Source of the DNA: a virus
Length of the DNA stretch: 64,000 nt
Virus record (IMG/VR): IMGVR_UViG_3300024298_000006
Coordinates: 46,418 to 110,417 of that record
Strand: one strand, 5' to 3'
The notes beneath the pieces were generated by a model, which ran no database searches, had not been told where the DNA came from, and saw only the letters and a list, made by a program, of their open reading frames with translations. A program made the position numbers and the translations under genes. This document shows positions 11,362 to 62,260 of this stretch, piece after piece (position 1 is the first letter of the stretch; each line of letters starts with the position of its first letter).

Positions 11362-12009
11362 ATGAATTTTAATGATTTAATGGCAAGAATGAGAGAGCTT
11401 GATCAACCAGCAGTTGAGGCAGCTCCAGTTGTAACAGACGAGTGTGGAGAAATGCCTCCTAGCCCAATGGGCAATATGGGTAAACCAGATGCTCCTCCTC
11501 CAAGTATGAGCGTTAACTTAAATGCACAAGGTTTAGATAATATTGAAGAACTATTATCTTTAATCAAGGCAGTTAACCCAGGTATGGATAAGCCTGCTGC
11601 TCCAATGGGCGGTATGCCACACATTGAAATTGAACCAATGGACAAGCCAGAAGGCGGTATGCCTAAGCTAGGCGGTCTAGGCGATCTAGACAAAGGCCCA
11701 TTGAAAATGCTTCCTGATATGGATGCTGACAACGATGAAAAAGTAGGCGGCGAAGAAGGTCCTGAAGAAAAAGGCGAAGAAGATAAAGAAGACGAAGCAT
11801 TTGGAAATTCAGTTCCAGGTTCTGAGCCAGAAGTTAAAGATGTTAGCGCAGCTATTCCGGACGGTAATGATTTAAACAAACCTAAACAAATGGTTAAACA
11901 CAGCTATCGTCAAGGCGACAATCCAATGGCCATGGAAGGCGAAGAATTACGTGCTTCTATTAGAGCAGAATTACTGCGTAGATTAGAAGAAGCTAAAGGA
12001 GCGAAATAA
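11362..12009 (+). CDS. Acidic Met/Pro/Gly-rich low-complexity protein
   Basis: 215 residues beginning MNFNDLMARMRELDQ. The middle is rich in Pro, Met, Gly, Asp and Glu (GGMPKLGGLGDLDKG, then a Glu/Lys tract) and is probably disordered; the C-terminus ELRASIRAELLRRLEEAKG is an amphipathic helix. The composition recalls scaffold or core proteins, but there is no firm homology. Its stop overlaps the next start (TAATGG). Confidence 0.55.
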   Translation: MNFNDLMARMRELDQPAVEAAPVVTDECGEMPPSPMGNMGKPDAPPPSMSVNLNAQGLDNIEELLSLIKAVNPGMDKPAAPMGGMPHIEIEPMDKPEGGMPKLGGLGDLDKGPLKMLPDMDADNDEKVGGEEGPEEKGEEDKEDEAFGNSVPGSEPEVKDVSAAIPDGNDLNKPKQMVKHSYRQGDNPMAMEGEELRASIRAELLRRLEEAKGAK

Positions 12010-12458
12010 TGGCAGATTTATACGGCGACGCATTAGGTGGCGGTTTAACAGGTAACGTCGACAGTAATGCAAGAAAATTATTAGGTGACGGCGCATCAGG
12101 CGTTGGACCATATACTAGTTTTGGTACTCCAAAATTACAAGCAATTAAAGTTGTTTCTGCAACAATTGACTTTACAACAACTCCCGCAGCAGCTAACAGT
12201 AATTTAGCTAAAGCAGTTTTTGCCCTACAGTCTTTATCTGAAATTTATTATGTTGGTAAACCAACAGCATCTGGTGCTAACCAATTTGTTGCATTAGTTA
12301 ATATTAACAAAACAGATGCAGGAAATGGATATGCAGCATCGGGAAGCGCAGACGGTTCTTACGAAAACCTAGAAGATGTCATCGGTGCAGCGTTAGGTGT
12401 TGCCGAAAACGACATCACAATTACAGACGTAGCGTTAACTGGTTTAACATTCGCTTAA
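12009..12458 (+). CDS. Small Ala/Gly/Thr-rich putative virion protein
   Basis: 149 residues, low in charge and rich in Ala, Gly, Thr and Asn, with alternating beta-like segments (AIKVVSATIDFTTTP, YYVGKPTASGANQFVALVN). This is typical of decoration or tail structural proteins, but no family is recognised. It is the last gene of the run and is followed by a strong terminator. Confidence 0.5.
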   Translation: MADLYGDALGGGLTGNVDSNARKLLGDGASGVGPYTSFGTPKLQAIKVVSATIDFTTTPAAANSNLAKAVFALQSLSEIYYVGKPTASGANQFVALVNINKTDAGNGYAASGSADGSYENLEDVIGAALGVAENDITITDVALTGLTFA

Positions 12459-46330: not shown

Positions 46331-46954
46331 ATGCAGACCCTAGGCTTATTTTCCGAACCCGTGACTCGCCAACAGATTTGGCCCGGAACCTGGCAACAGC
46401 AGCTTGATCAGATTCCCTGTGAATATCAGACCAATCACTGTTACTCCCTGTCCCAGAGAGTTTTGGACACAGTTCCAGATCTACACCAAATAATTGAACA
46501 AAGGGTTCAACAGTGGGCTGAACAGGTTCTGGGCATCACGGATACACTCTACATCACAGAAAGTTGGATCAATGTCTATAATACCGGCGACTCCATACAT
46601 CAGCACAGCCACCCTAATTCCATAGTGTCGGGAACTTGGTATTGGTCAACACCCGAAACAGAGATTAGATTTCACAAACAGGGCTTAAACTCATCTACAC
46701 ACTGGACTATGAAACTGGATCAAAGGCCCACAGCCTGGTCACAGACAGAAGTCATACTGCCCGTAGAACAAGGTGATCTACTCCTATGGCCCAGTTATCT
46801 ACAGCACTCAACCACAGCACACACCAGCGAAGAACCAAGAAAAACTCTGAGCTTTAATGCAATGCCTAGATCTTGGGGAAGTAATTTCTATAGAGTCGGC
46901 GAAGCCGCAGCGCAAATTCCTGAGCGCGAAGCGCAGCAGCGCAAGATTTTTTAG
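46331..46954 (+). CDS. 2-oxoglutarate/Fe(II) oxygenase-like protein 3
   Basis: 207 residues. ESWINVYNTGDSIHQHSHPN gives the first metal His cluster (HxH rather than HxD), and LLLWPSYLQHSTTAHTSEEP with RKTLSFN the distal His and 2-oxoglutarate-binding Arg. This layout is that of the putative 2OG oxygenases found repeatedly in T4-like phages. The GC-rich, Ala/Gln/Glu-rich C-terminal tail (AAAQIPEREAQQRK) is unlike the rest. Confidence 0.78.
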   Translation: MQTLGLFSEPVTRQQIWPGTWQQQLDQIPCEYQTNHCYSLSQRVLDTVPDLHQIIEQRVQQWAEQVLGITDTLYITESWINVYNTGDSIHQHSHPNSIVSGTWYWSTPETEIRFHKQGLNSSTHWTMKLDQRPTAWSQTEVILPVEQGDLLLWPSYLQHSTTAHTSEEPRKTLSFNAMPRSWGSNFYRVGEAAAQIPEREAQQRKIF

Positions 46955-49460: not shown

Positions 49461-49492
49461 CTTTCGCTCCTTGTTTGTTTGTGTATGTGTCA

Positions 49493-49893: not shown

Positions 49894-49920
49894 TGTTCGC
49901 TCCTTTGTTTCAGTGTTTAT

Positions 49921-50704: not shown

Positions 50705-50729
50705 CTTCGCTCCTTGTTAGTATGTGTAT

Positions 50730-51218: not shown

Positions 51219-51254
51219 CAAAAAAAACCCTACTGTACGTGTATACAGTAGGGT
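51219..51254 (-). terminator. Strong intrinsic terminator
   Basis: Minus strand: 11-bp perfect stem (ACCCTACTGTA/TACAGTAGGGT), 6-nt loop, eight U in the RNA. Confidence 0.93.
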
Positions 51255-51287
51255 GTTAAGACCGCCGATACCGGGAGCGAATCGGGT
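51219..51287 (-). ncRNA. Candidate 3'UTR-derived antisense RNA, copy 1
   Basis: Between the stop at 51288 and the terminator, the transcript carries CCGATTCGCTCCCGG (51285-51271). CCGAT and a downstream ATCGG (51269-51265 region) can close a stem that exposes TCGCTCC in the loop. TTCGCTCC is the exact complement of GGAGCGAA, the ribosome-binding motif of most early genes. A single seed loop plus a strong terminator is the usual architecture of a bacterial sRNA. Whether a separate RNA is released is unknown. Confidence 0.4.
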
Positions 51288-51599
51288 TTATTCGGCGATA
51301 GCTTCTGTCTTCGCGACAGTAGTCTTACTTACCTTGGCAGCTGTGGCCAAAGGGTTCTTCTTGACAATGTAAGCAACAGCAGCTTCTACAGCAGCATTGC
51401 CCTTGCCAAAGCCAGTTTCGACCATATAGGCACCAATCTCAGCCTTGGTCATTTCACGTGGAAGATCCACGAGGTTGATGTCAGTGTGACCATTCTTGGC
51501 AAGGATCTTGATGCGCATCACGTCATTAGCGAAACGAACCTTGGTCTTACCTGCTTGAGTGGAAACACCAGCAACCGCAAACTTCTTATCTGTAGCCAT
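51288..51599 (-). CDS. Basic conserved early protein
   Basis: 103 residues, Lys/Ala-rich: MATDKKFAVAGVSTQAGKTK, FANDVMRIKILAKNGH, and a Lys-rich C-terminus. Possibly nucleic-acid binding. Its own ribosome-binding site (AGAGGTAA) differs from the GGAGCGAA set. Its 3'UTR carries the candidate antisense element. Confidence 0.6.
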   Translation of the reverse strand: MATDKKFAVAGVSTQAGKTKVRFANDVMRIKILAKNGHTDINLVDLPREMTKAEIGAYMVETGFGKGNAAVEAAVAYIVKKNPLATAAKVSKTTVAKTEAIAE

Positions 51600-51653
51600 T
51601 TAAATTACCTCTTTCTGTGTGTGTTAAAAAATATACCTTTTTGGTATGTTATA

Positions 51654-51682
51654 AATGTAGCATCAAGTGCCACTTCTGTCAA
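51654..51682 (-). promoter_or_regulatory. Early promoter P8
   Basis: TTGACA, 17 nt, TACATT; leader of about 50 nt before 51599 with an inverted repeat ACCAAAAAGGT near 51640. Confidence 0.8.
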
Positions 51683-51869
51683 CCATTCGGTTGTCCAATT
51701 TAGACACTCGAATGGTCACAGACTCTTTCTCGTCTAGGGCGGCGATAAACTCGTCGTCATAGACCAGATCCTGAAAGGCCAAATCGAGCATTTCCTCGAC
51801 CCGGACCTCGTCCGCTGTGCCTGAACCTCCACAGATGACTTCTAATCGATAGTTAAAGGTTCTCGACAT
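51663..51869 (-). CDS. Small early protein
   Basis: 68 acidic residues (RVEEMLDLAFQDLVYDDEF). Third gene of the operon from P9, overlapping the upstream gene by 17 bp; its 3' end contains the P8 -35 region. Function unknown. Confidence 0.5.
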   Translation of the reverse strand: MSRTFNYRLEVICGGSGTADEVRVEEMLDLAFQDLVYDDEFIAALDEKESVTIRVSKLDNRMVDRSGT

Positions 51870-52167
51870 TTTCCCAAAATTCCTTGCGTAACATAAACAT
51901 CGTGTAGGCTTCCTTGCTCAGATACAGCGATGATTTCTCTGCATCCCAGGCCCAAACCGGCTGATGTCCATCGAAGTAAGTGGGCCGGGCGCAGAACAAT
52001 TCTCCTGAAGGACCAAACTGTTGCCACAGCCAGTTGCGAGCTCGAACCCATTGTGCAATTCGAGTCTGCTTCTGGCCATGTGGCTGATAGCCTGTGAACT
52101 CGACTCTATGACTGAAGCGATCGTGCCCGTCATAGCGTCGGTCCATTTTGACCACAGTCATTGTCAT
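51853..52167 (-). CDS. Early protein, unknown
   Basis: 104 residues, rich in Trp and Arg (QWVRARNWLWQQFGPSGELF, then YTMFMLRKEFWENVENL). ATGA-coupled to the upstream gene. Confidence 0.6.
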   Translation of the reverse strand: MTMTVVKMDRRYDGHDRFSHRVEFTGYQPHGQKQTRIAQWVRARNWLWQQFGPSGELFCARPTYFDGHQPVWAWDAEKSSLYLSKEAYTMFMLRKEFWENVENL

Positions 52168-52787
52168 AGAGACTTCAACTCCAGGTTCTTGTCAACACCA
52201 TCTTTGATCCACTCTGTGAGTTCTTCTTCTTCCTCTTCCTGGAACTCACGGATAGCCTCAGCGATGCAGAACGCTTCGTCTAGTTCTGGGTAATCCCGTT
52301 CGATCTCATCAGCAGTCATGCCTTCGAGGCTAAAGTCCTCGCAGTTGCCGTCCTCATATACACCAGCAAAAGCCATACCTGATTCATAGAACTGTGCAGA
52401 AACTCGGAAGCCTAGTTGCTCTAACTTCTGATAAGCATTCACGGGTGGAGACCATGCTGAATCAAAGGTAGTGAACAGCGTCTTACCATCAGGGTGAATA
52501 TCAGTCTGTCCATCGCCACCTACATCCCATTTGGTTCCCCACTCGCCGACGCAGTAGTCATACCAGTTGCTGTAGCCAAACTTTTCAACATTGGACTTCA
52601 TCTGTGCTTCCAATGCGGCCTGCTTGTCTCCGTCCCCGTAGGAACCAGCCATGGTTTCTGTGAGTTCTTTGGGCACAGGAATGAACTCCTGCAGGAACTC
52701 TCCACGATCCAGTGCTTCTTTGGCACGAGTAATCATTGCTGGATCATCGTGCTCAAGGGTCAATGTGTTGTTGCACCAATTTGGCAT
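52164..52787 (-). CDS. DUF1281/Api92-like early protein
   Basis: 207 residues from ATG 52787. The start MPNWCNNTLTLEHDDPAMI is the signature of the ferredoxin-like DUF1281/YubB family found on phages and plasmids. A very acidic C-terminal stretch (FQEEEEEELTEW) follows. GGAGCG precedes the start. Function of the family is not established. Confidence 0.75.
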   Translation of the reverse strand: MPNWCNNTLTLEHDDPAMITRAKEALDRGEFLQEFIPVPKELTETMAGSYGDGDKQAALEAQMKSNVEKFGYSNWYDYCVGEWGTKWDVGGDGQTDIHPDGKTLFTTFDSAWSPPVNAYQKLEQLGFRVSAQFYESGMAFAGVYEDGNCEDFSLEGMTADEIERDYPELDEAFCIAEAIREFQEEEEEELTEWIKDGVDKNLELKSL

Positions 52788-52788
52788 A

Positions 52789-52986
52789 TCACGCTCCTTC
52801 TGTTTCAGTATTAGTATTATACAACCGATCTTCGATGTTGTCAACCAAATTCTGTTCCAAAGTGTCAGCGGAGCGACTCAGAATCTGGGCCATAGTGCGT
52901 TCCACCTTAATCCTCTCTGGAAGGCTCATGGGTGTTTCCAAGGCCTTGACGGCTCGTTGAATGTATTGAAATTCCGTAGGGGTCAT
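52789..52986 (-). CDS. Small early helical protein
   Basis: 65 residues from ATG 52986 (MTPTEFQYIQRAVKALETPM). ATGA-coupled to the upstream gene. Its last 19 codons run through promoter P9. Confidence 0.55.
   Translation of the reverse strand: MTPTEFQYIQRAVKALETPMSLPERIKVERTMAQILSRSADTLEQNLVDNIEDRLYNTNTETEGA
52816..52844 (-). promoter_or_regulatory. Early promoter P9
   Basis: TTGACA, 17 nt, TATAAT; serves 52787-51663. It lies inside the 3' end of the next gene. Confidence 0.9.
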
Positions 52987-53231
52987 CGCCAATCCTTCTT
53001 GTTACCATCACGCTCGTTGTCGTTGTAGCCGGCCATGTATTCAGCCACTGAAGCCTCGTCGTTGACCGAGACTCGGGCGCCGGAATCGCCTCCCACTCCA
53101 CCGTAGTGAGGATCACGTGCCCTACCGTAGTAGGAGTCTGCGGATCCACGATCATACAAGCAACCATGGGTTCCACGCACGAACTGCCAACCCTTTAGGG
53201 CATTTACAACACGCTGTTTTTCTGTTATCAT
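52983..53231 (-). CDS. Small early protein
   Basis: 82 residues, Gly/Tyr/Asp-rich centre (DSYYGRARDPHYGGVGGDSG), N-terminal helix with KGWQFVRGTHGC. GGAGCGAA leader. The DUF-like opening (VVNALKGWQFVRGTHGCLYD) may be a small ligand or DNA module; function unknown. Confidence 0.55.
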   Translation of the reverse strand: MITEKQRVVNALKGWQFVRGTHGCLYDRGSADSYYGRARDPHYGGVGGDSGARVSVNDEASVAEYMAGYNDNERDGNKKDWR

Positions 53232-53254
53232 CGTTCGCTCCTTATCATAGTTCT

Positions 53255-53283
53255 ATTGTATGATCAAGCAGCCAATTTGTCAA
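53255..53283 (-). promoter_or_regulatory. Early promoter P10
   Basis: TTGACA, 17 nt, TACAAT; serves 53231-52789. The whole promoter lies in the coding end of the gene 53404-53264. Confidence 0.88.
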
Positions 53284-53404
53284 CCAATTTCAACTCAGGT
53301 TTTCCTACAACACGGCCGCCGTTGATTGTGGCGTACATTTCCGCTACAGCCCGAACGTAGAACTTCTGGGAGTTGCCATTGGGGTAAATCACGGTGTATT
53401 CCAT
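53264..53404 (-). CDS. Very small early protein
   Basis: 46 residues: MEYTVIYPNGNSQKFYVRAV, then GKPELKLVDKLAA. The last codons (LVDKLAA) are written by the -35 box and spacer of P10. Leader GGAGAGCGAA. Function unknown. Confidence 0.6.
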   Translation of the reverse strand: MEYTVIYPNGNSQKFYVRAVAEMYATINGGRVVGKPELKLVDKLAA

Positions 53405-53426
53405 TCGCTCTCCTAACTATGTGTCA

Positions 53427-53455
53427 ATTATAGCAAGGATCAGCCAAAGTGTCAA
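53427..53455 (-). promoter_or_regulatory. Early promoter P11
   Basis: TTGACA, 17 nt, TATAAT for the gene starting at 53404. Confidence 0.9.
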
Positions 53456-53718
53456 CCAGTTTTTTTAGCGATATGTGGATAACCTTTGAGTTTGGCGGGT
53501 TTCTTCTTGACCTTAAACTCTTTCTCAACATAGTATTTGAGCAGCTCTGTTTGGATCATTTTGACCAAATCCGAACCGTTAGATTCCGGGCAGATGAACC
53601 GAACCGGACAGTGACCCCAACTCATATGCTCTAGGAATTGGTTGTAGTAGCGTCTGTGCATCTTGTTCCTTGGATCAAAGGCTACAAGGGGGCGGGCGTA
53701 GTATTCTAATTTGCTCAC
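53452..53718 (-). CDS. Small early protein with GTG start
   Basis: 88 residues (FDPRNKMHRRYYNQFLEHMS, then LVKMIQTELLKYYVEKEF) with a Lys-rich end. Start GTG overlaps the upstream stop (GTGA). Function unknown. Confidence 0.6.
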   Translation of the reverse strand: MSKLEYYARPLVAFDPRNKMHRRYYNQFLEHMSWGHCPVRFICPESNGSDLVKMIQTELLKYYVEKEFKVKKKPAKLKGYPHIAKKTG

Positions 53719-53891
53719 GAATTTACAGTCTCAAACGGATCGTAGGAATCGTCTGTGGTTAGCCCGTTACCGGCGATCCAATCATAGACCATCTCTGTGG
53801 GGCACTCCAACATGAGAGCAATCATCTTAGGCGAATGACCTTCGATATACAGTTGCTCGATATCATAGGCAAGATCTGCGACTTTACTCAT
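53715..53891 (-). CDS. Small helix-turn-helix-like protein
   Basis: 58 residues. DIEQLYIEGHSPKMIALMLE and CPTEMVYDWI resemble a homeodomain/resolvase-type HTH (helix, G-x-S, helix, V-x-x-W). It could be a small DNA-binding regulator. ATGA overlap with the upstream gene. Confidence 0.6.
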   Translation of the reverse strand: MSKVADLAYDIEQLYIEGHSPKMIALMLECPTEMVYDWIAGNGLTTDDSYDPFETVNS

Positions 53892-54019
53892 TTAGCATTC
53901 TCCATAACTCCAGTTACAACCGTGTGGGTGGTATCAACAGCATTACCAACGATGGTCTTAGTAACAGCAGGGTACAGGACAGCCAATGTTAAAAATACTC
54001 CTAACAAGAATTTAAGCAT
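53888..54019 (-). CDS. Very small membrane or exported peptide
   Basis: 43 residues: MLKFLLGVFLTLAVLYPAVT, then VGNAVDTTHTVVTGVMENAK. One hydrophobic segment at the N-terminus, signal-anchor like. Similar peptides occur in cyanophages as far as I recall. Leader AAGGAGTG. Confidence 0.6.
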   Translation of the reverse strand: MLKFLLGVFLTLAVLYPAVTKTIVGNAVDTTHTVVTGVMENAK

Positions 54020-54051
54020 TTTATCACTCCTTACTTTGTTACGATATCTAT

Positions 54052-54080
54052 ATTATACAACCAATCTACCTATCTGTCAA
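54052..54080 (-). promoter_or_regulatory. Early promoter P12
   Basis: TTGACA, 17 nt, TATAAT; serves 54019-53452. Confidence 0.9.
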
Positions 54081-54104
54081 GACCTAGATTCACGCACACA
54101 CGTA

Positions 54105-54118
54105 GCAGCGGGGCCACT
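54105..54118. repeat. GC-rich 11-14 bp repeat, copy 1
   Basis: GCAGCGGGGCCACT in a short intergenic gap. Other copies lie at 62643, 62869, 63069 and 63431. Confidence 0.7.
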
Positions 54119-54122
54119 TAGG

Positions 54123-54144
54123 AAGTTGTGGCTTTTTAGCCACA
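54123..54144. other. Perfect hairpin after the VWA gene
   Basis: 9-bp stem GTTGTGGCT/AGCCACAAC with a 4-nt loop, in the 3'UTR of the leftward VWA gene. No U-run follows on the minus strand, so it may stabilise the message rather than terminate. Confidence 0.55.
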
Positions 54145-54160
54145 ACCCCCGGCACTCCGG

Positions 54161-55366
54161 TTAGCCCGTTTCCTTTTCGTAGATAACAGTCTGACCAAAG
54201 GGTGCTTGAGCAGATGTGTTACCTTTAACGATAAAGATTGTGTCGCAGTAGTCCTCAGGACCCCAACTACCGCAGGGATAGCCGTCTGTGAACATAATGA
54301 ACTTCTTAGGGCGAATGTCATTCTCTTCCATAAAGGTAAAGTTGACATCGAAGTCTGTGCCACCGCCACCTTGAGGTTCATACTCAACCAAGTCTTCAGC
54401 GTTGTCGTGGCTGATGCTTTGGTGATTGTAGATCTCTGTGTCAAAACACCACAGGTTGATCTTGAAGTCCTCGTATTGATCCATAATGCCTTTGATCTCA
54501 GAAAGGAATACAGTTGCATCCTCTTCACCGATCGAACCCGACATATCGATTGCAATAGCCACGTCAATGGTAGTTGCTTCTTTCATACCAGGAAGCACCG
54601 CACCTGAGTGTTGGCTCTTACGATTGTAGCGAGCGAATGAGTAGTCATTACGCACAATAGATTGGATCTCTTGCTGAACCAATTGGCGCCAGTCCATTTT
54701 AGGCTCAGTCATAGTCTTGATCATACGCATAATGCCCGCAGGAGTCTTACCTGCACCAGCGGCCGCGGCACTTTGGATCATAGCCTCTTTGATCTCTTGA
54801 CGCAGTTTCTCAGCTTCTTCCTTACTGAGCGTAGGCTTCTCTTTGCCGTCTTTGGTCTTGTCGCCAGGGCTACCAGCACCTTCTTCTTCTTTAATGTGCT
54901 CGTCCAAAAGGTCACCCAATTGCTTCAGCAGTTGATCCATAGGGATCTTCTCTGCTTGTTCATACAATTGATCGTAGATTTCTTCCCAAGCCATACCACG
55001 ATACTTGGGATCGTAGCAGATCTTAACCTCGGTGATCTTCTCACCGATGCGTTCGTCTACAAGGATTTGGTTTACGGCATAGTCCTGTGCGATGTTAGAC
55101 AGCATACGATCACGTGAACCTACGCGACCAAAGTGATCAAAAACGCAGTGGCAGATCTCGTGTGCCAGCAGGAACTCTAACTTCTTAACAGACAGTTTGT
55201 TAATGAAGTCCTTGTTATACATAAAGTCACGGCCGTTAGTTGCCGCGGTAGGGCACCAGTCTGAAGCGTCCATCAAACGCATACGGGTGGCCATATTGCC
55301 GAAGAAGGGTGCTTTCAAAAGCAGGCCTACTCGTGCAGTAGTTAGTTTCTCAACGATTGGATCCAT
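54161..55366 (-). CDS. VWA-domain protein with N-terminal metallopeptidase-like domain (DUF2201 type)
   Basis: 401 residues. The N-terminal part has HEICHCVFDHFGR (zinc HExxH, about residue 69); a charged linker spans about 150-195; the VWA domain follows, with MIDAS IDMSGS near 272-277 and TDGYPCGSWG near the end. It is the partner type of MoxR ATPases; such pairs act as chaperones that insert metals or remodel proteins. The MoxR gene lies just upstream under a separate promoter. Leader GGAGAGCGA. Confidence 0.88.
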   Translation of the reverse strand: MDPIVEKLTTARVGLLLKAPFFGNMATRMRLMDASDWCPTAATNGRDFMYNKDFINKLSVKKLEFLLAHEICHCVFDHFGRVGSRDRMLSNIAQDYAVNQILVDERIGEKITEVKICYDPKYRGMAWEEIYDQLYEQAEKIPMDQLLKQLGDLLDEHIKEEEGAGSPGDKTKDGKEKPTLSKEEAEKLRQEIKEAMIQSAAAAGAGKTPAGIMRMIKTMTEPKMDWRQLVQQEIQSIVRNDYSFARYNRKSQHSGAVLPGMKEATTIDVAIAIDMSGSIGEEDATVFLSEIKGIMDQYEDFKINLWCFDTEIYNHQSISHDNAEDLVEYEPQGGGGTDFDVNFTFMEENDIRPKKFIMFTDGYPCGSWGPEDYCDTIFIVKGNTSAQAPFGQTVIYEKETG

Positions 55367-55391
55367 AAGTCGCTCTCCTTAGTATGTATAT

Positions 55392-55420
55392 ATTATAGCA
55401 CCGGAAATCCAATGCGTCAA
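55392..55420 (-). promoter_or_regulatory. Early promoter P13
   Basis: TTGACG, 17 nt, TATAAT for the VWA gene. The -35 box begins right after the MoxR terminator U-run. Confidence 0.88.
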
Positions 55421-55423
55421 CCG

Positions 55424-55455
55424 TAAAAAAAGGGTGTTGTATTTCTACAACACCC
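55424..55455 (-). terminator. Intrinsic terminator of the MoxR gene
   Basis: Minus strand: 10-bp stem GGGTGTTGTA/TACAACACCC with GAAA tetraloop, then seven U. Confidence 0.93.
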
Positions 55456-55472
55456 CCGCAATGGGCGAGGTC

Positions 55473-56558
55473 TTAATTCTCCATTGCTGAAAGAACATAC
55501 TTGCCGAAACGCTTGTGGAACTCGTCGAACGACTTCATCTTAGTAGCGTCCAGGGGCAGGTCGTAGTTAGTAAGAGCAGTCTTTGCACCCATAACAACCA
55601 ACTCTGTTGGGAAGTTAGCCATCATATAGGCAAAGAAGTTATCTGCCATACCGTCCCAGTCCTTGACCTTCTTCTCAGCACGGTCTTTCAACTCGTAGCA
55701 GAGTGAAACAGTCAACGAATACATCGCAGACACTTCTTTGATCTGCAGGTCCTTGACCTTGCCATCCAAAATGTCTTCTGCCTTAGGCAGTTTGCCTGCG
55801 ATCTTACGGTGAGCCATAAACTTATTGCTCAGACCGTCACCAACGGCACCCGCAATCAGGGTAGCCAAAGTCTCGTTGTCAACATCGTCGTCGCTGAGCA
55901 GGTCAGAAACGAACATCCAAGAACGAGGAGTAGCAAATGACTTGCTAGGGCTCTTAGGATCGAAGTCATACAGGTCTTGCTTGGCAAAGCCTACATAACC
56001 TACGACATCTGGATGCACCTTGTTCAAGGTAGCCCAGTCTTGCCAGTCATCAAAGTCCACTTTCATTTCCAAGTGAACGAAACGGTTAGCCAGCGGAGCA
56101 GGCATACGGTAGGTAACACCACGGTCACCTTCACGGTTACCAGCGGCGACTACGTCAACACCCTTAGGCAGTTCGTAGGTACCAACACGACGGTTCAGAA
56201 TCAACTGATAGGCCGCGGCCTGAACAGCAGGAGGAGCAGAGTTCAATTCATCCAAGAAGATGATTGCCTTGCTATCTGGGTCCACAGGCAGTTCTGCAGG
56301 AGGAGCCCAAGTCATTTTGCCTTGATCGGCATTGTAATAAGGAATACCCTTGATGTCGGTGGGCTCCCAAAGTGCTAGGCGGACGTCGATGACCTCACGA
56401 CCTGCGTCTTCACCGATCTGCTTGACGAGATCGGATTTACCAATGCCTGGAGGACCCCACAGGAACACTGGACGGCGAACATTGACCGCCTTACGAATTG
56501 CCTTCTTGGCGTTTTTAGGACCAACTTGGCGAACGGAAACATCTACTTGCTTTGACAT
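55473..56558 (-). CDS. MoxR-family AAA+ ATPase
   Basis: 361 residues. Walker A GPPGIGKS (35-42), Walker B IIFLDELN (about 95-102), sensor I in VVAAGN, and an Arg-rich stretch near PLANRF. The C-terminal helical domain is typical of MoxR. It probably works with the adjacent VWA protein to remodel a host or phage target. The leader uses GCGAGG rather than GGAGCGAA and has a 43-nt AT-rich 5'UTR. Confidence 0.92.
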   Translation of the reverse strand: MSKQVDVSVRQVGPKNAKKAIRKAVNVRRPVFLWGPPGIGKSDLVKQIGEDAGREVIDVRLALWEPTDIKGIPYYNADQGKMTWAPPAELPVDPDSKAIIFLDELNSAPPAVQAAAYQLILNRRVGTYELPKGVDVVAAGNREGDRGVTYRMPAPLANRFVHLEMKVDFDDWQDWATLNKVHPDVVGYVGFAKQDLYDFDPKSPSKSFATPRSWMFVSDLLSDDDVDNETLATLIAGAVGDGLSNKFMAHRKIAGKLPKAEDILDGKVKDLQIKEVSAMYSLTVSLCYELKDRAEKKVKDWDGMADNFFAYMMANFPTELVVMGAKTALTNYDLPLDATKMKSFDEFHKRFGKYVLSAMEN

Positions 56559-56607
56559 AAGACCTCGCTTAAAAAACAGTTAAAACAATTACTCTCTCAG
56601 TATCATT

Positions 56608-56636
56608 ATTGTAGCACCAGGTGCCCAACCTGTCAA
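56608..56636 (-). promoter_or_regulatory. Early promoter P14
   Basis: TTGACA, 17 nt, TACAAT for the MoxR gene. The -35 overlaps the stop of the next gene. Confidence 0.88.
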
Positions 56637-57274
56637 CTGATGATTTTCACATAATTTAGGGCTGTTGTTTTATCGCCACGATGCTGTTTGATCTTGGCCT
56701 TCACCCGCAGTTCACCTTCTACAGCACGTGAGAACCAAAAGTCCACAAATGACTCACCTGCACGGGCGTAGATCTTGAACTTGTTGTATTCAGGATTGTA
56801 ACGCGAACGTATTACAGTCAGAGAGATCACAACAGTATCCCCTACAGCGCCCGGGAGTTGCTCACTTTGGAACAGTTCTCGTTTCATCTCCGTCCGGGAT
56901 TGCTCCATGCGAGCTGACTGGGGCAAGCAGCTGACAATGGCGAAGTCCAACATATCACGGCCCGTGAACTCGTCCTTTTGGGCAATCTTGAGAGCAGTCT
57001 GCTCGAAGTCTGTGATCTTCCCAGTCAGCAGCTTCATGGTGAAGGTGTTGATCTGTGCGCGATATTGCTGTCCCTGAGCGATCTCTTCTGCTGTAGGCTG
57101 CACATTGTCGCGGAGCCATTGCTTGACCAAGACCTTGTTTGGTTGCTTGATCACGGTGTTGTAGTCTATCCCGTGGGTGGCAGTAGCAGCATAGACTGGC
57201 TCTTTGCAGTAGCCGCCATTTTGAACATCAGCCCTAACAGCCAGGCCCCATACTTGATCTGCTGTGAATTGCAT
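56633..57274 (-). CDS. Early phage protein, unknown
   Basis: 213 residues: MQFTADQVWGLAVRADVQNG at the start, KFKIYARAGESFVDFWFSRA and a basic beta-rich end (RVKAKIKQHRGDK). Related phage proteins exist, but I know no function. Leader GGAGCGAAG. Confidence 0.6.
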   Translation of the reverse strand: MQFTADQVWGLAVRADVQNGGYCKEPVYAATATHGIDYNTVIKQPNKVLVKQWLRDNVQPTAEEIAQGQQYRAQINTFTMKLLTGKITDFEQTALKIAQKDEFTGRDMLDFAIVSCLPQSARMEQSRTEMKRELFQSEQLPGAVGDTVVISLTVIRSRYNPEYNKFKIYARAGESFVDFWFSRAVEGELRVKAKIKQHRGDKTTALNYVKIIS

Positions 57275-57301
57275 TCTTCGCTCCGTTGTCTAACTGTCTC
57301 T

Positions 57302-57330
57302 ATTATATAGCTGATCGCCCAAGTTGTCAA
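57302..57330 (-). promoter_or_regulatory. Early promoter P15
   Basis: TTGACA, 17 nt, TATAAT for the gene starting at 57274. Confidence 0.9.
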
Positions 57331-57378
57331 CCGGTTTGGAGAGTGCCGGCCGGTGTGGCATTTTTGCAACATCCAGCC

Positions 57379-57405
57379 AAAAGAAAAGCCGCTGTAGTAG
57401 CGGCT
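57379..57405 (-). terminator. Intrinsic terminator
   Basis: Minus strand: 7-bp stem AGCCGCT/AGCGGCT, loop ACTAC, then UUUUCUUUU. Confidence 0.88.
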
Positions 57406-57455
57406 CAAAGAAAGTCCCCGGGAGCGAATCGGATCGTTTACTTTAGGAGCGACTC
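57379..57455 (-). ncRNA. Candidate 3'UTR-derived antisense RNA, copy 2
   Basis: Between the stop at 57456 and the terminator the RNA carries the same 15-mer CCGATTCGCTCCCGG (57432-57418) and, earlier, GTCGCTCC (57453-57446). UCCG/CGGG can close a hairpin exposing ATTCGCTCC, complementary to GGAGCGAAT. As in copy 1, a strong terminator follows at once. Confidence 0.42.
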
Positions 57456-57728
57456 TTAAAGAGTGATACCCATTGCGCGAGCTTTGTAGCCAAGTGCTAC
57501 GATCTCACGGCTTGGTTGGCCCAACTCGTATTCGGTAACAGTCACACCGTTGCCAGCAACACGAGTGTTGGCATAAACAGCGTAACCATGCTGACGAATG
57601 CGGCTTGCTTCAGCAGCCAAGTTACCTACGCCGAAACGCTTAGTTGCTTCGGATTGGGTAAGTTTTGCACCATTGTAAAGTGCGTTGAAGACCTTGAAAG
57701 TCTTGGTGTCTTTAGAAATGCGTTTCAT
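57456..57728 (-). CDS. Small winged-helix-like early protein
   Basis: 90 basic residues: TFKVFNALYNGAKLTQSEAT, KRFGVGNLAAEASRIRQHGY and AVYANTRVAG. The helix, turn, recognition-helix and wing order fits a winged HTH DNA-binding protein. An inverted repeat spans its own promoter, so it may regulate itself. Ribosome-binding site AAGGAAA, not GGAGCGAA. Confidence 0.65.
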   Translation of the reverse strand: MKRISKDTKTFKVFNALYNGAKLTQSEATKRFGVGNLAAEASRIRQHGYAVYANTRVAGNGVTVTEYELGQPSREIVALGYKARAMGITL

Positions 57729-57770
57729 TTTGTTTCCTTTTAAGTTAATATAGCTGATTACTTGTTCTTC

Positions 57771-57797
57771 AGCGTTCTTAAATATTAGCAGAACGCT
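57771..57797. promoter_or_regulatory. Operator-like inverted repeat over promoter P16
   Basis: AGCGTTCT (57771-57778) and AGAACGCT (57790-57797) are perfect 8-bp inverted repeats separated by 11 bp that contain the -10 box. Confidence 0.65.
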
Positions 57798-58010: not shown

Positions 58011-58237
58011 AGTAATTCTCCTATCTCTTCTGCTAGTTTAACAGACTCGATTTCCTTTTGCAAGAGCTTTTCTGCTCGTTTTCCATTTACTGAAGTGCCA
58101 CCCTGATATACTTTGTAGAAGTGGTCAGCACAGTAGCTCTTTCCAGTTAGATTGGGCTTACCGCAGTAGTGAACAGAACCCTTGCGGGGGTCCTGTTCGG
58201 GCCCAATCCACTGACAGGTCAGCGGACGGTAATCCAT
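58007..58237 (-). CDS. GcrA-like zinc-binding protein
   Basis: 76 residues. CQWIGPEQD, HYCGKPNLTGKSYCADHF and YQGG follow the C-terminal cysteine/histidine pattern of GcrA-type regulators; the DNA-binding N-terminus is missing. It might interact with RNA polymerase or DNA. Coupled to the AAA ATPase gene (TAATGG). Confidence 0.6.
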   Translation of the reverse strand: MDYRPLTCQWIGPEQDPRKGSVHYCGKPNLTGKSYCADHFYKVYQGGTSVNGKRAEKLLQKEIESVKLAEEIGELL

Positions 58238-59343
58238 TATGCAATTCCTTTCATAACAGTGACCTTGGCCATATTCTGCCAGTTAGATGGGAAGCTCTTG
58301 CGCAGGTCTGCGACTTTGAGCACAGTACGCAGGCTCAGTTCACGCATAGTAGCGCGATTGTCGTCGATGAAGCTGACAACCTCATCTTTGGCAATGTCCT
58401 CCAGCTCGTAGCTATCCAACATACCATCCTTGACAATCTGCTTGATACGCAGTACCTTCTCGCGATCTGTGTCCATACGCAGATCAATATAGTGACAGCG
58501 TGACTCTAGGGCCGCCAAGTGCTCCTGCAGTTTCTTAGAGCGAACGTTCTCAAACTTCAAGTTAGTGATAAAGATAGCACCACCCTTGAACTCGAAACGA
58601 TCTGGCACTCCTTCTGAACGAAGCAGACGGCTGTCAGTGTTCCACGAAATGGTACGCTTCTTGCTAGAGTCCAAAGCGGCCTTAAGAATGTTAAGTGCAA
58701 TGTCGTCCAAAAGAATTGAGTCACAGTCGTCGAACACAAGAATGTTCTTAGCGTCTGAGTATTTGTAGAGCTTAGTGTACAGACCAATGGCTGACATTGC
58801 GCCCTTGACGATCTCATATTTGGGCTTACGCTGACCCATCATATCAAACAGATCGTCTTTGGCAAGTACTTCTTCAACGCCAAAGGATTTGCCCACACCT
58901 GGAGGGCCTGTGACGATCATAGCACGTACATCACCATTCTTGACAGCTTTAGTCATATCTTTGAGGATGTCAAAGCGCAGACGAGTGCGTTCGATGATGT
59001 CCTCGTCGGACTCGTGTGCTACAGCAGTATCGGGCACCTTGATCTGAGTGAAATCGGTGACCTCTGCGCCTTTGGCACTCTTTGACTTTAAAGCAGTCAG
59101 CATTGATACCCCTTGTGGAATTTGTGTTGCTTGAACAGTACCTGCGACAGCATAGTCGCCCTGACGGCACTTGATTCGGATATTGCGCTCAGGGAAGCCC
59201 TCTACACTAGTACCATCAACAGTAACATAGCCGTCGCCGTTCTTAGACACTTTGTAATCTTCTACAAGATTAAAAGTAAGTCCTGCAACGTTAACAGGTT
59301 GACCCTTGATGTTGTACCAGCCTTCAGTGAATGTAATCTGCAT
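58237..59343 (-). CDS. AAA ATPase with a beta-rich N-terminal domain
   Basis: 368 residues. Residues 1-75 form a beta-type domain (MQITFTEGWYNIKGQPVNVA); the ATPase has GPPGVGKS (about 144-151), Walker B ILVFDDCDS (about 200) and sensor IFITNL. Its C-terminal helical part resembles clamp-loader/RarA-like ATPases. It is distinct from the MoxR protein. Similar ATPases are common in marine T4-like phages; the substrate is unknown. Confidence 0.8.
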   Translation of the reverse strand: MQITFTEGWYNIKGQPVNVAGLTFNLVEDYKVSKNGDGYVTVDGTSVEGFPERNIRIKCRQGDYAVAGTVQATQIPQGVSMLTALKSKSAKGAEVTDFTQIKVPDTAVAHESDEDIIERTRLRFDILKDMTKAVKNGDVRAMIVTGPPGVGKSFGVEEVLAKDDLFDMMGQRKPKYEIVKGAMSAIGLYTKLYKYSDAKNILVFDDCDSILLDDIALNILKAALDSSKKRTISWNTDSRLLRSEGVPDRFEFKGGAIFITNLKFENVRSKKLQEHLAALESRCHYIDLRMDTDREKVLRIKQIVKDGMLDSYELEDIAKDEVVSFIDDNRATMRELSLRTVLKVADLRKSFPSNWQNMAKVTVMKGIA

Positions 59344-59373
59344 CTTCGCTCCGTTTTGTTTAACTATGACTCT

Positions 59374-59859: not shown

Positions 59860-59888
59860 TGTTCGCTCCTGTGTGTTGCTAAGCCTAT

Positions 59889-60275: not shown

Positions 60276-60309
60276 AGTTTCGCTCCTTAGTTGCGTTGTT
60301 GAAGTGTTT

Positions 60310-61102: not shown

Positions 61103-61278
61103 GCAGTCTCCTTGATAGAATCAGCAACCAATTTGTGGCAGGTGTTCAGGGTCAGCATCATCACGTGTGCAGCCAGCGCAGCATCCTGGCCTGTGAACTG
61201 ATTGATTATATCGTGCAGCTCGTTGAGATCTGCGGGAGTGTGCCAAATATTGCTATGTGGAATCGGGTTAGTCATCAT
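61099..61278 (-). CDS. Small early protein
   Basis: 59 residues (WHTPADLNELHDIINQFTGQ, then AAHVMMTLNTCHKLVADSI). Two consecutive ATGs at 61278 and 61275; leader GGAGCGAATG. Function unknown. Confidence 0.6.
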   Translation of the reverse strand: MMTNPIPHSNIWHTPADLNELHDIINQFTGQDAALAAHVMMLTLNTCHKLVADSIKETA

Positions 61279-61304
61279 TCGCTCCTTAACGTTACAATAC
61301 CTGT

Positions 61305-61662: not shown

Positions 61663-61686
61663 TGCTCGCTCCTTCAACATATGTAT

Positions 61687-62009: not shown

Positions 62010-62087
<78 letters not shown>

Positions 62088-62091
62088 TAAC

Positions 62092-62168
62092 TGGCCACGC
62101 ATAAGGGATTCGAACCCCTGACCCACAGCTTAGAAGGCTGTTGCTCTATCCAACTGAGCTAATGCGTG
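62092..62168 (-). tRNA. tRNA-Arg (UCU)
   Basis: Acceptor CACGCAT/ATGCGTG, D-arm TAGCTCAGTTGGATAGAGCA, anticodon loop CTTCTAA, T-loop TTCGAAT, discriminator G, encoded CCA. It reads AGA/AGG, abundant in the AT-rich late genes. Confidence 0.92.
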
Positions 62169-62175
62169 ATTTAAA

Positions 62176-62260
62176 TGGTGCGACTGACCAGAATCGAACT
62201 GGTATGCATTGCTGCGAGGGATTTTAAGTCCCTTGTGTCTACCTATTTCACCACAGTCGC
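62176..62260 (-). tRNA. tRNA-Leu (UAA)
   Basis: 85 nt with long variable arm. Acceptor GCGACTG/CAGTCGC, anticodon loop CTTAAAA, T-loop TTCGATT, discriminator A, encoded CCA. It reads UUA/UUG, the most used Leu codons of this phage. Confidence 0.93.

Follow-up and report, generated by a model that had tools for sequence, protein, structure and literature searches.

The window analyzed in this work, the whole stretch of 64,000 nucleotides spanning positions 46,418 to 110,417 of the IMG/VR virus record IMGVR_UViG_3300024298_000006, contains on its minus strand two early genes, encoding the proteins P0001 and P0002, whose stop codons are each followed by the 15-mer CCGATTCGCTCCCGG (Table 1). Searches of Pfam, PHROGs and PADLOC at E 0.01 returned nothing for P0001. 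As the initial annotation had proposed, an exact-match search of the window located identical copies after both genes, each ahead of a hairpin resembling an intrinsic terminator, and neither the window nor the full record of 110,417 bases contains a third exact copy. The order stop codon, element, intrinsic terminator is that of 3'UTR-derived small RNAs. The 9-nt loop of the element, AUUCGCUCC, is complementary to GGAGCGA(A), as had also been claimed, although its conserved extent turned out to be the nine nucleotides ATTCGCTCC, closed by CCG/CGG. The second seed GTCGCTCC described for the copy downstream of P0002 is indeed present.

Table 1. Features of the putative antisense element and of its predicted targets in the window (pairing energies with the element under Remark)
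Feature	Position	Strand	Remark
Carrier gene 1, P0001, 103 aa	51288..51599	-	Leader AGAAAGAGGTAATTTAAATG, without target motif
Carrier gene 2, P0002, 90 aa, winged-helix HTH_39	57456..57728	-	Leader AAAAGGAAACAAAATG, without target motif
Putative antisense hairpin 1, CCG-ATTCGCTCC-CGG, 3'UTR of carrier 1	51271..51285 (loop 51274-51282)	-	Kept in relatives
Putative antisense hairpin 2, CCG-ATTCGCTCC-CGG, 3'UTR of carrier 2	57418..57432 (loop 57421-57429)	-	
Intrinsic-terminator-like hairpin, 3' of hairpin 1	51227..51254	-	
Intrinsic-terminator-like hairpin, 3' of hairpin 2	57386..57406	-	
Second seed GTCGCTCC, directly 3' of carrier 2 stop codon	57446..57453	-	One mismatch
Motif GGAGCGAA, leader of gene starting 49460	49463..49470	-	-14.1 kcal/mol
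Motif GGAGCGAA, leader of gene starting 49893	49896..49903	-	-13.9 kcal/mol
Motif GGAGCGAA, leader of gene starting 50704	50706..50713	-	-14.1 kcal/mol
Motif GGAGCGAA, leader of gene starting 53231	53234..53241	-	-16.1 kcal/mol
Motif GGAGCGAA, leader of gene starting 57274	57277..57284	-	-14.2 kcal/mol
Motif GGAGCGAA, leader of AAA-ATPase gene 58237-59343 (P0003)	59345..59352	-	-14.2 kcal/mol
Motif GGAGCGAA, leader of gene starting 59859	59862..59869	-	-15.3 kcal/mol
Motif GGAGCGAA, leader of gene starting 60275	60279..60286	-	-14.4 kcal/mol
Motif GGAGCGAA, leader of gene starting 61278	61278..61285	-	-15.6 kcal/mol
Motif GGAGCGA(G), leader of gene starting 61662	61666..61672	-	-13.7 kcal/mol
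GGAGCGAA, sole plus-strand (late) leader, gene 12009-12458	11998..12005	+	-14.1 kcal/mol

The Predicted Target Motif in Early Gene Leaders

About ten early genes have GGAGCGA(A) as their ribosome-binding motif, and most of those searched lacked a named family. The window contains 13 copies of the octamer GGAGCGAA, where 1.1 would be expected, and none of 100 shuffles reached 13. Nine of these sites are on the minus strand directly upstream of start codons, with the first G 7-11 nt ahead of the start codon; in the gene starting at 61278 the last A of the motif doubles as the A of ATG. These are the nine early genes that the initial annotation had named, and its sites were real, although the positions it gave are those of the start codons. 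The four plus-strand sites comprise the complements of the two 15-mers, one leader (11998) and one position inside the tail-sheath gene (4641).

When the pairing of the element with leaders was computed for start codons chosen from the ORF table, and hence for a subset of the genes, 16 of the 34 early-strand leaders reached -12 kcal/mol or lower and 18 did not, compared with 2 of 39 plus-strand leaders. As a control, 500 random 15-mers with the same GC content were taken from the window, and 2 of them performed as well as the element. The leaders of P0001 and P0002 showed weak computed pairing (-4.6 and -3.1 kcal/mol, respectively).

Recurrence and Covariation of the Hairpin in Related Contigs

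The hairpin recurs after both the P0001 and the P0002 genes in IMG/VR relatives, and other contigs usually carry two hairpins after an AAA-ATPase gene, one of them inside the terminator loop, so that the module was found 3' of three different genes. In one contig (L227) it follows the AAA-ATPase gene and is absent after the P0002 homologue. The 32 loci used for hairpin and terminator placement were picked by eye from the scan list, and per-locus counts are not independent because the loci overlap and many contigs are near-identical. The window's own AAA-ATPase, P0003, is similar at its C terminus to these third-carrier genes; one locus, L187, scored as a putative carrier whose AAA-ATPase is of the same type as P0003 and whose leader contains GGAGCGA.

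Folded as single sequences, the copy after P0001 was good (z -4.1) but that after P0002 was unconvincing (z -1.0), and the claim of structure therefore rests on sequence comparison rather than on one fold. In the first AAA-linked hairpin (12 sequences), 89.6% of the cells were paired versus 54.1% in shuffles, and the covariation score was 0.953 versus 0.274, with none of 500 shuffles as high and at most 0.162 when the alignment was slid; two weaker measures, the pairs with two-sided changes and the pair types, were matched in 102 and 18 of 500 shuffles, respectively. RNAalifold left ATTCGCTCC as the tip loop. After removal of 380 occurrences antisense to a start codon, 11 of the 25 distinct 3-bp closings around the loop were fully paired, compared with 2.65 expected and a maximum of 8 in 2000 shuffles. 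The element after P0002 has in relatives a covarying outer stem on its flanks, whose 36 distinct arms scored 587 against 496 ± 16 (0 of 5000 permutations); in a first arm test, 4 of 50 P0002 arms outscored all their mismatched partners. The terminator arms of 23 sequences gave 24.7 when matched and 14.1 when mismatched. Because changes in the stems are compensated by matching changes in the paired bases and the loop is invariant, the hairpin is, on this comparative evidence, a conserved structured RNA presenting a putative seed. A chance origin of the element is ruled out by its conservation and covariation.

Among 631 distinct leaders of element-bearing contigs, 214 contain GGAGCGA; C, G and A follow GGAG at 61, 54 and 48%, and no enrichment was seen for bases able to pair with the stem or the loop's first A. 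By this count, the conserved span of the predicted target equals the loop. The full 15-nt complement, CCGGGAGCGAATCGG, lies 5' of ATG or GTG at ten loci of the 15-mer scan. No hairpin was found in the records with such leaders, seven of which were searched for TTCGCTCCCGG and four for P0002; one of these records (G004) has a P0002 homologue, with no hairpin in the 3 kb examined.

Co-occurrence of the Element and the Leader Motif

The initial annotation had proposed covariation of the two motifs in related phages as a check. In 52 distinct P0002 rows (rows up to L120, identical P0002 proteins merged, motif scored as present at a cut-off of 12% of the GGAG leaders), element and motif were both present in 41, only the element in 4, only the motif in none and neither in 7. 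Co-occurrence thus held for 41 of the 45 element-bearing rows against 0 of the 7 element-less ones, but with exceptions, namely, the element-bearing L082, L107, L111 and L119, which have few or no GGAGCGA leaders, and L063, where the loop is absent from the 3'UTR and GGAGCGA is nonetheless found in 3 of 6 leaders. L063 falls outside the count because its P0002 protein repeats another row; its sequence diverges from that of L066 14 nt past the stop codon. Corrected for kinship, three independent pairs on supported branches remained, in which the motif went the same way in 2.4 on average and never the opposite way (sign test, p 0.25-1). Independent variation of the 15-mer and the leader motif, the outcome set in advance as speaking against the idea, was not the general pattern.

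No contig among those examined had loop and leader jointly re-coded to a new matching pair, since in L070 the leader is changed and the element is absent, and in the contigs with the loop variant TAGTCGCTCC (L094, L096, L100 and L108) the loop is changed and the GGAGCGA leaders are retained. L070, which has neither element nor motif and uses GAGGGCAA, carries AAAGAGGGCAAA in its leaders; the complement TTTGCCCTC occurs four times in its 357-kb record, always on the leader-complement strand, and no terminator-linked TTTGCCCTC was seen within the 20-kb locus.

It had also been claimed that the carrier genes use other ribosome-binding sites and would be exempt. This stands for P0001 and P0002, as GGAGCGA is present in none of the 69 distinct P0001/P0002 leaders that accompany an element, but not for the AAA-ATPase carrier, with GGAGCGA in 18 of 24 leaders. 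The 24 include that of L165, whose frame is cut by the contig end and has no true leader; the five others without the motif have T, G or C after GGAGCG. A general exemption of carrier genes is ruled out, and an AAA-ATPase carrier that usually has the leader motif would repress itself.

Comparison with Known RNAs and Databases

At gathering scores, Rfam returned tRNAs only and no small-RNA family in the window, and in four related loci it gave six matches, all below the gathering score (best E 0.29). The three tRNAs are confined to 62010-62260, and the element as a tRNA or Rfam remnant is ruled out. In a megablast search against annotated phages, the best 20 of 52 records all matched the tRNA cluster. 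No homologue of P0001 was found among annotated phages, and P0002 had only one, in Pelagibacter phage HTVC008M (36%). Querying with 42 nt of the element yielded a single match of 18 nt, inside a mycobacteriophage gene. A host or prophage origin was set aside, the at least 118 stretches returned by a bacterial genome scan, from many unrelated taxa, being presumed chance hits and excluded from all counts. No published description of the element was found, judged by titles and the opening parts of abstracts, and none of the literature matches listed for the bare sequence letters was on phages by its title.

In the c4 RNA of phages P1 and P7, complementary sequences that are probably in loops block a ribosome-binding site on a phage mRNA; this RNA has been described as targeting ant mRNA and serves in immunity (PMC12197685). 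The element resembles c4 as a putative phage RNA with loop-borne complementarity to a ribosome-binding region, but it differs in that a single 9-nt loop matches about ten leaders of one genome and in that early genes carry the RNA as their 3'UTR. A single ant target as in c4 is ruled out by the about ten predicted early target genes, although an ant gene may be among them. In Staphylococcus aureus, RNAIII and the Rsa RNAs pair through unpaired C-rich loops (UCCC), several of them in RNAIII, with several Shine-Dalgarno sequences (PMC3861533). The C-rich loop AUUCGCUCC has the same kind of predicted complementarity to several Shine-Dalgarno sequences (the 16 leaders above), whereas the UCCC tetramer here straddles the loop end and the closing base, the element is viral and not bacterial, and its targets share the extended motif GGAGCGA that matches the loop. 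The element would work in the manner of c4 RNA and of the C-rich loops of RNAIII.

T4 RegB acts at the GGAG Shine-Dalgarno sequences of early phage mRNAs, its own message included, and thereby inactivates them (PMC3014915). The proposed outcome is similar, but RegB is a protein nuclease whereas here an RNA would act; the RegB family had no match in the phage record, nor in any of the 14 control genomes. For bacterial 3'UTR-derived small RNAs, autoregulation is reported (PMC7398697, PMC9438474); the element shares with them an mRNA 3'UTR hairpin plus intrinsic terminator, here predicted from sequence. Hfq had no match in the phage record and was detected in 5 of the 14 control genomes.

Proposed Mechanism and Alternative Readings

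We consider it probable, from the comparisons described above, that the element is a trans-acting antisense RNA that blocks the Shine-Dalgarno sequence of a shared early regulon. The 3' end of an early mRNA would carry one or more small hairpins, just before or inside the intrinsic terminator, and a stable RNA would be released or persist from this 3'UTR. The 9-nt loop held by the hairpin would pair with GGAGCGA(A), which forms the Shine-Dalgarno sequence and spacer of the shared early genes, would block ribosome binding on these messages and would repress their translation. The P0001 and P0002 messages would stay translated in the absence of the motif, and the AAA-ATPase carriers of related contigs, mostly with the motif, would limit themselves. 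As a result, early gene expression would be shut off or kept within a limit.

The recurrence of one motif at leaders and at carrier 3' ends would also be expected if GGAGCGAA/TTCGCTCC were a double-stranded DNA site bound by a phage protein such as P0002, which is a winged-helix protein and itself a carrier. A duplex motif is equal in either orientation, but in the record the motif is sense where a start codon follows and antisense at the 3'UTRs; it keeps a constant spacing from the start codon but not from the promoter, its position is that of the Shine-Dalgarno sequence, and the 3' copies lie in RNA hairpins with compensatory stem changes that a duplex site does not need, so that we regard a DNA site as highly unlikely. 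We find it very unlikely that the 3' hairpin serves in stability or termination and that its complementarity to leaders has no regulatory role: it adjoins the intrinsic terminator and sometimes sits within the terminator loop, but a plain stability hairpin does not need an invariant 9-nt loop on variable stems, and this loop fits the leader motif and is mostly absent where the motif is absent. As symmetric pairing cannot alone separate regulator from target, the leaders might be the active partner, with early mRNAs acting as a sponge for the 3'UTR RNA or with pairing activating or protecting the targets; this is very improbable, given that covering the Shine-Dalgarno sequence itself is the repressive arrangement described for c4 RNA and RNAIII (PMC12197685, PMC3861533).

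Within antisense repression, the pairing may work as a steady homeostatic feedback on early gene dosage rather than as a timed switch, a version that we take seriously while leaning against it. The AAA-ATPase carriers, having the target motif, would damp themselves, and T4 RegB cleaves its own message in addition to shutting off early genes (PMC3014915); the lack of the target motif in P0001 and P0002, on the other hand, suits accumulation and a one-way shut-off. An RNA directed mainly against other phages has a precedent in the heteroimmunity of P1 and P7 through c4 RNA (PMC12197685), and three different carriers as well as divergent P0002 homologues go with one loop and leader code. Since this code is common to divergent contigs, the RNA of a resident phage would turn off early genes in co-infecting relatives; however, its own regulon would be silenced too, and we judge a mainly anti-phage role quite unlikely. 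A combined role, in which the RNA of one phage shuts down that phage's early regulon as the early phase gives way to the late one and does the same to early genes in co-infecting relatives, giving an RNA-based immunity across divergent phages, is unlikely as well.

Biological Implications

Judged by contig comparison, the 9-nt loop and the early leader motif are common to a large group of uncultured phages, and the element points to a putative built-in RNA brake on early protein production. Should this brake exist, the loop and leader code would provide a testable marker for a widespread phage group for which no close annotated relative was found. If the antisense reading is true, these phages would possess a regulon wired by RNA alone, in which one loop at a 3' end recognizes a shared extension of the Shine-Dalgarno sequence, and which would be an RNA counterpart of T4 RegB. 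Such a regulon would explain why CGA is kept after GGAG in these phages, and it would represent a portable part, with one short RNA controlling many genes tagged with one leader.

Early region, element copies and target motif

The window was taken from an uncultured tailed phage, whose record of 110,417 bases includes genes for tail sheath, large terminase, SSB and helicases. The minus strand of the window resembles an early region between about 46 and 63 kb, where many genes come with an individual promoter-like site (TTGACA-17-TATAAT) and a short leader; 22 such sites, with at most two mismatches, were located on the minus strand beyond 45 kb. Two genes of this region, P0001 (103 aa) and P0002 (90 aa, winged-helix HTH_39), carry in their 3'UTR the 15-mer CCGATTCGCTCCCGG, whose loop is complementary to GGAGCGA(A), and no further exact copy was found in the whole record.

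Features of the window and of related loci
Feature	Location	Strand	Remark
15-mer, copy 1	3' of P0001 gene 51288-51599	minus	terminator-like hairpin next
15-mer, copy 2	3' of P0002 gene 57456-57728	minus	terminator-like hairpin next
Small leader hairpin, P0001	~51600-51660
Small leader hairpin, P0002	~57729-57790
AAA gene	58237-59343
MoxR-type AAA ATPase gene adjoining DUF2201 metallopeptidase/VWA-like gene	54161-56558	minus
CCGGCACTCC-like motif	~57340-57353	minus	recurs 3' of P0002 terminator in many loci
CCGGCACTCC-like motif	54149-54161	plus
tRNA cluster	62010-62260	minus	three genes (Met, Arg, Leu)
CCGGGAGCGAATCGG	L130, L144, L146, L147, L157, L166, L167, L197, L200, L220		few bases before or overlapping start codon

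The motif GGAGCGAA occurs 13 times in the window against 1.1 expected, and nine of these occurrences are indeed leaders to which the initial annotation had assigned it. The whole record contains 20 GGAGCGA sites. Twelve are suitably spaced from a start codon, 11 of them on the early strand and one on the opposite strand; of the remaining eight, three are hairpin-seed complements and five lack a start codon. Pairing with the 15-mer reached −12 kcal/mol or better in 16 of 34 early-strand leaders and in 2 of 39 plus-strand leaders, the two carrier leaders giving −4.6 and −3.1 kcal/mol. When 500 random window 15-mers of equal GC were used as a control, the mean was 1.5 leaders, and 16 were reached by two of the 500.

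Conservation of the element and a third carrier

Homologues of the carriers were searched for irrespective of the element, yielding 40 loci for P0001 and 80 for P0002. Of 113 loci with a P0002 homologue, two ended before the 3'UTR and 111 were scored. TCGCTCC was present 3' of the P0002 stop codon in 103 of them (absent from L036, L063, L070, L106, L112, L113, L114 and L117). The element sequences, about 65-77 nt long, comprised 54 distinct ones. A 3'UTR with TTCGCTCC or TCGCTCCC followed the gene behind 23 of 37 distinct P0001 leaders, and TTCGCTCT was present in some of the remaining ones (L005, L008). A CGCTCC-bearing string, AACTCCGCTCCTCC, also recurs on the sense strand of L014, L015, L016, L021, L028, L061, L081, L082, L101 and others.

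An exact-match scan of viral contigs returned at least 119 stretches. Among the matches listed there were 122 occurrences in 115 new loci, with 48 after a P0002 homologue, 14 after a P0001 homologue and 60 after neither; by eye, these 60 included apparent chance matches in coding DNA, leader complements and one new class. The third carrier, an AAA-ATPase gene, was defined from 32 loci of this new class, chosen by eye among the matches listed, plus L080. In 31 of these 33, comparison by eye placed the C-terminus LRELSLR.VLK.ADL, which is also seen in the AAA gene of the window, in the longest of the frames that stop a short way upstream of the element; in L183 and L185 the frames before the element have only 5 and 21 codons. 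Exactly two seeds lie on the element strand in 28 of the 32 loci. Typically a first hairpin, for example GTAGACTGC-CCAACGATTCGCTCCCGGCAA-GCAGTCAGT in L150, precedes a second one in which TAAATCCGATTCGCTCCCGG forms the terminator loop itself. L206 and L080 have both AAA-linked and P0002-linked copies, and L227 has an AAA-linked copy and none after its P0002 homologue.

A fixed loop on varying stems

RNAalifold left unpaired at the tip of the first AAA-linked hairpin exactly ATTCGCTCC, and at least three contiguous pairs close this loop in 89 of 107 distinct 21-mers. Fully paired three-base closings, which include CCG/CGG, CTG/CAG, GTG/CAC, TTG/CAA, TGG/CCA, AGG/CCT and TCG/CGA, numbered 11 of 25 distinct ones against 2.65 expected (shuffle maximum 8, n=2000). 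In 12 sequences of the first AAA-linked hairpin, two-sided changes were observed at all eight stem pairs, 89.6% of cells were paired versus 54.1% after shuffling, and covariation was 0.953 versus 0.274 (0 of 500 shuffles as high; at most 0.162 in a slid register), two coarser measures being less extreme (102 and 18 of 500 shuffles). The AAA-type terminator arms scored 24.7 when matched and 14.1 when mismatched, 14 of 23 beating every mismatched partner. For the outer stem of the P0002 3'UTR, 36 distinct arms scored 587, whereas permuted partners gave 496 ± 16 and none of 5000 permutations scored as high, although in a cruder test just 4 of 50 arms outscored all of their mismatched partners; the single-sequence fold of the window copy after P0002 was unconvincing. 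A fixed loop on varying stems is the pattern expected for an RNA that would exist to present its loop.

Association between the element and the leader motif

GGAG alone would suffice as a Shine-Dalgarno sequence and the 16S anti-Shine-Dalgarno has no complement to CGA, so the frequency of CGA after GGAG needs another cause. Among 631 distinct GGAG leaders of element- and P0002-bearing contigs, the three bases 3' of GGAG were C in 61%, G in 54% and A in 48%, with full CGA in 214. The corresponding values were 74%, 58% and 58% in AAA-carrier contigs (all three bases in 84 of 201 leaders) and 32%, 14% and 27% in the 44 leaders of element-less contigs. GGAG is preceded by A in 80% of leaders, though the base able to pair with the hairpin stem there is G; at the position facing the first A of the loop, T is found in 21%. 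Therefore, the favoured target is a match to the loop that ends where the stem starts.

In 78 P0002-selected loci, GGAGCGA leaders averaged 0.52 per kb in the 64 with a TTCGCTCC 3'UTR versus 0.19 in the 14 without it (Mann-Whitney p 1.9e-5, kinship ignored). Seven of these 14 have TCGCTCC, six with 2-7 GGAGCGA leaders and L107 with 0/25; the seven with neither sequence showed 3/6 (L063), 1/16 (L070), 0/6 (L106), 1/20 (L112), 1/18 (L113), 0/10 (L114) and 0/12 (L117). The initial annotation had made covariation of element and motif in related phages a check on its proposal. With the motif scored as present at 12% or more of GGAG leaders, and rows sharing one P0002 protein merged (which left L063 out), 41 of 52 distinct rows had both, seven neither and none the motif alone, but four had the element alone (L082, L107, L111, L119). 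Supported tree branches gave just three independent comparisons, none in the wrong direction, and a sign test is unable to reach significance.

L070, whose P0002 is 82% identical, has GAGGGCAA leaders and lacks the hairpin. The locus spans 20 kb on a contig of 357 kb; downstream of most of its early promoters a different leader motif, (A)GAGGGCAAA, stands before ATG, and no terminator-linked complement of it was seen there. Ten loci contain CCGGGAGCGAATCGG, which is complementary to the hairpin over all 15 nt. In L167 and L220 it is separated from the start codon by a second ribosome-binding site, and there is a TAAATA sequence, which we take to resemble a T4-type late promoter, shortly upstream in L144, L146, L147, L166, L167 and L220; some of the genes preceded by CCGGGAGCGAATCGG presumably encode a secreted CsgF-like protein.

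The two carriers of the window had also been proposed to escape silencing. In line with this, GGAGCGA was present in none of the 69 distinct P0001 and P0002 leaders accompanying the element (0/23 and 0/46), but the AAA carriers have GGAGCGA in 18 of 24 leaders (53 of 58 distinct leaders in window-type AAA genes devoid of the element). Thus, two carriers would be exempt and the third would repress itself, much as T4 RegB cuts its own message (PMC3014915). Both P0001 and P0002, and many relatives, have a small leader hairpin, e.g. GCTGA...TCAGC before AAAGGAAA, perhaps an mRNA stabiliser or operator.

Proposed role of the element

Because P0002 is an HTH protein, the motif might be bound by it as DNA; the orientation of the motif, its constant spacing from the start codon and the RNA covariation make this unlikely. 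The best reading of the anatomy, complementarity, structure, conservation and motif association observed for the element is that the 3' end of carrier early mRNAs, intact or processed, would act in trans and block initiation on the early regulon, whose Shine-Dalgarno and spacer its loop would pair with; expression, repression and timing of this RNA are what we infer.

Like the P1/P7 c4 RNA, the element presents in a loop the complement of a phage ribosome-binding site (PMC12197685), and it resembles RNAIII-type RNAs in its C-rich loops (PMC3861533); it would achieve the effect of RegB. It shares the general features of these systems, whereas the targets specific to them and the sequence families they belong to are different. 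Rfam gave no matching family. Annotated phage records gave no match either, in a set that may omit close relatives of the window. The element may shut the early regulon off or restrain it by feedback, and it is best classed as a putative virus-encoded RNA against the Shine-Dalgarno sequences of a whole regulon, whose leaders carry the matching code.
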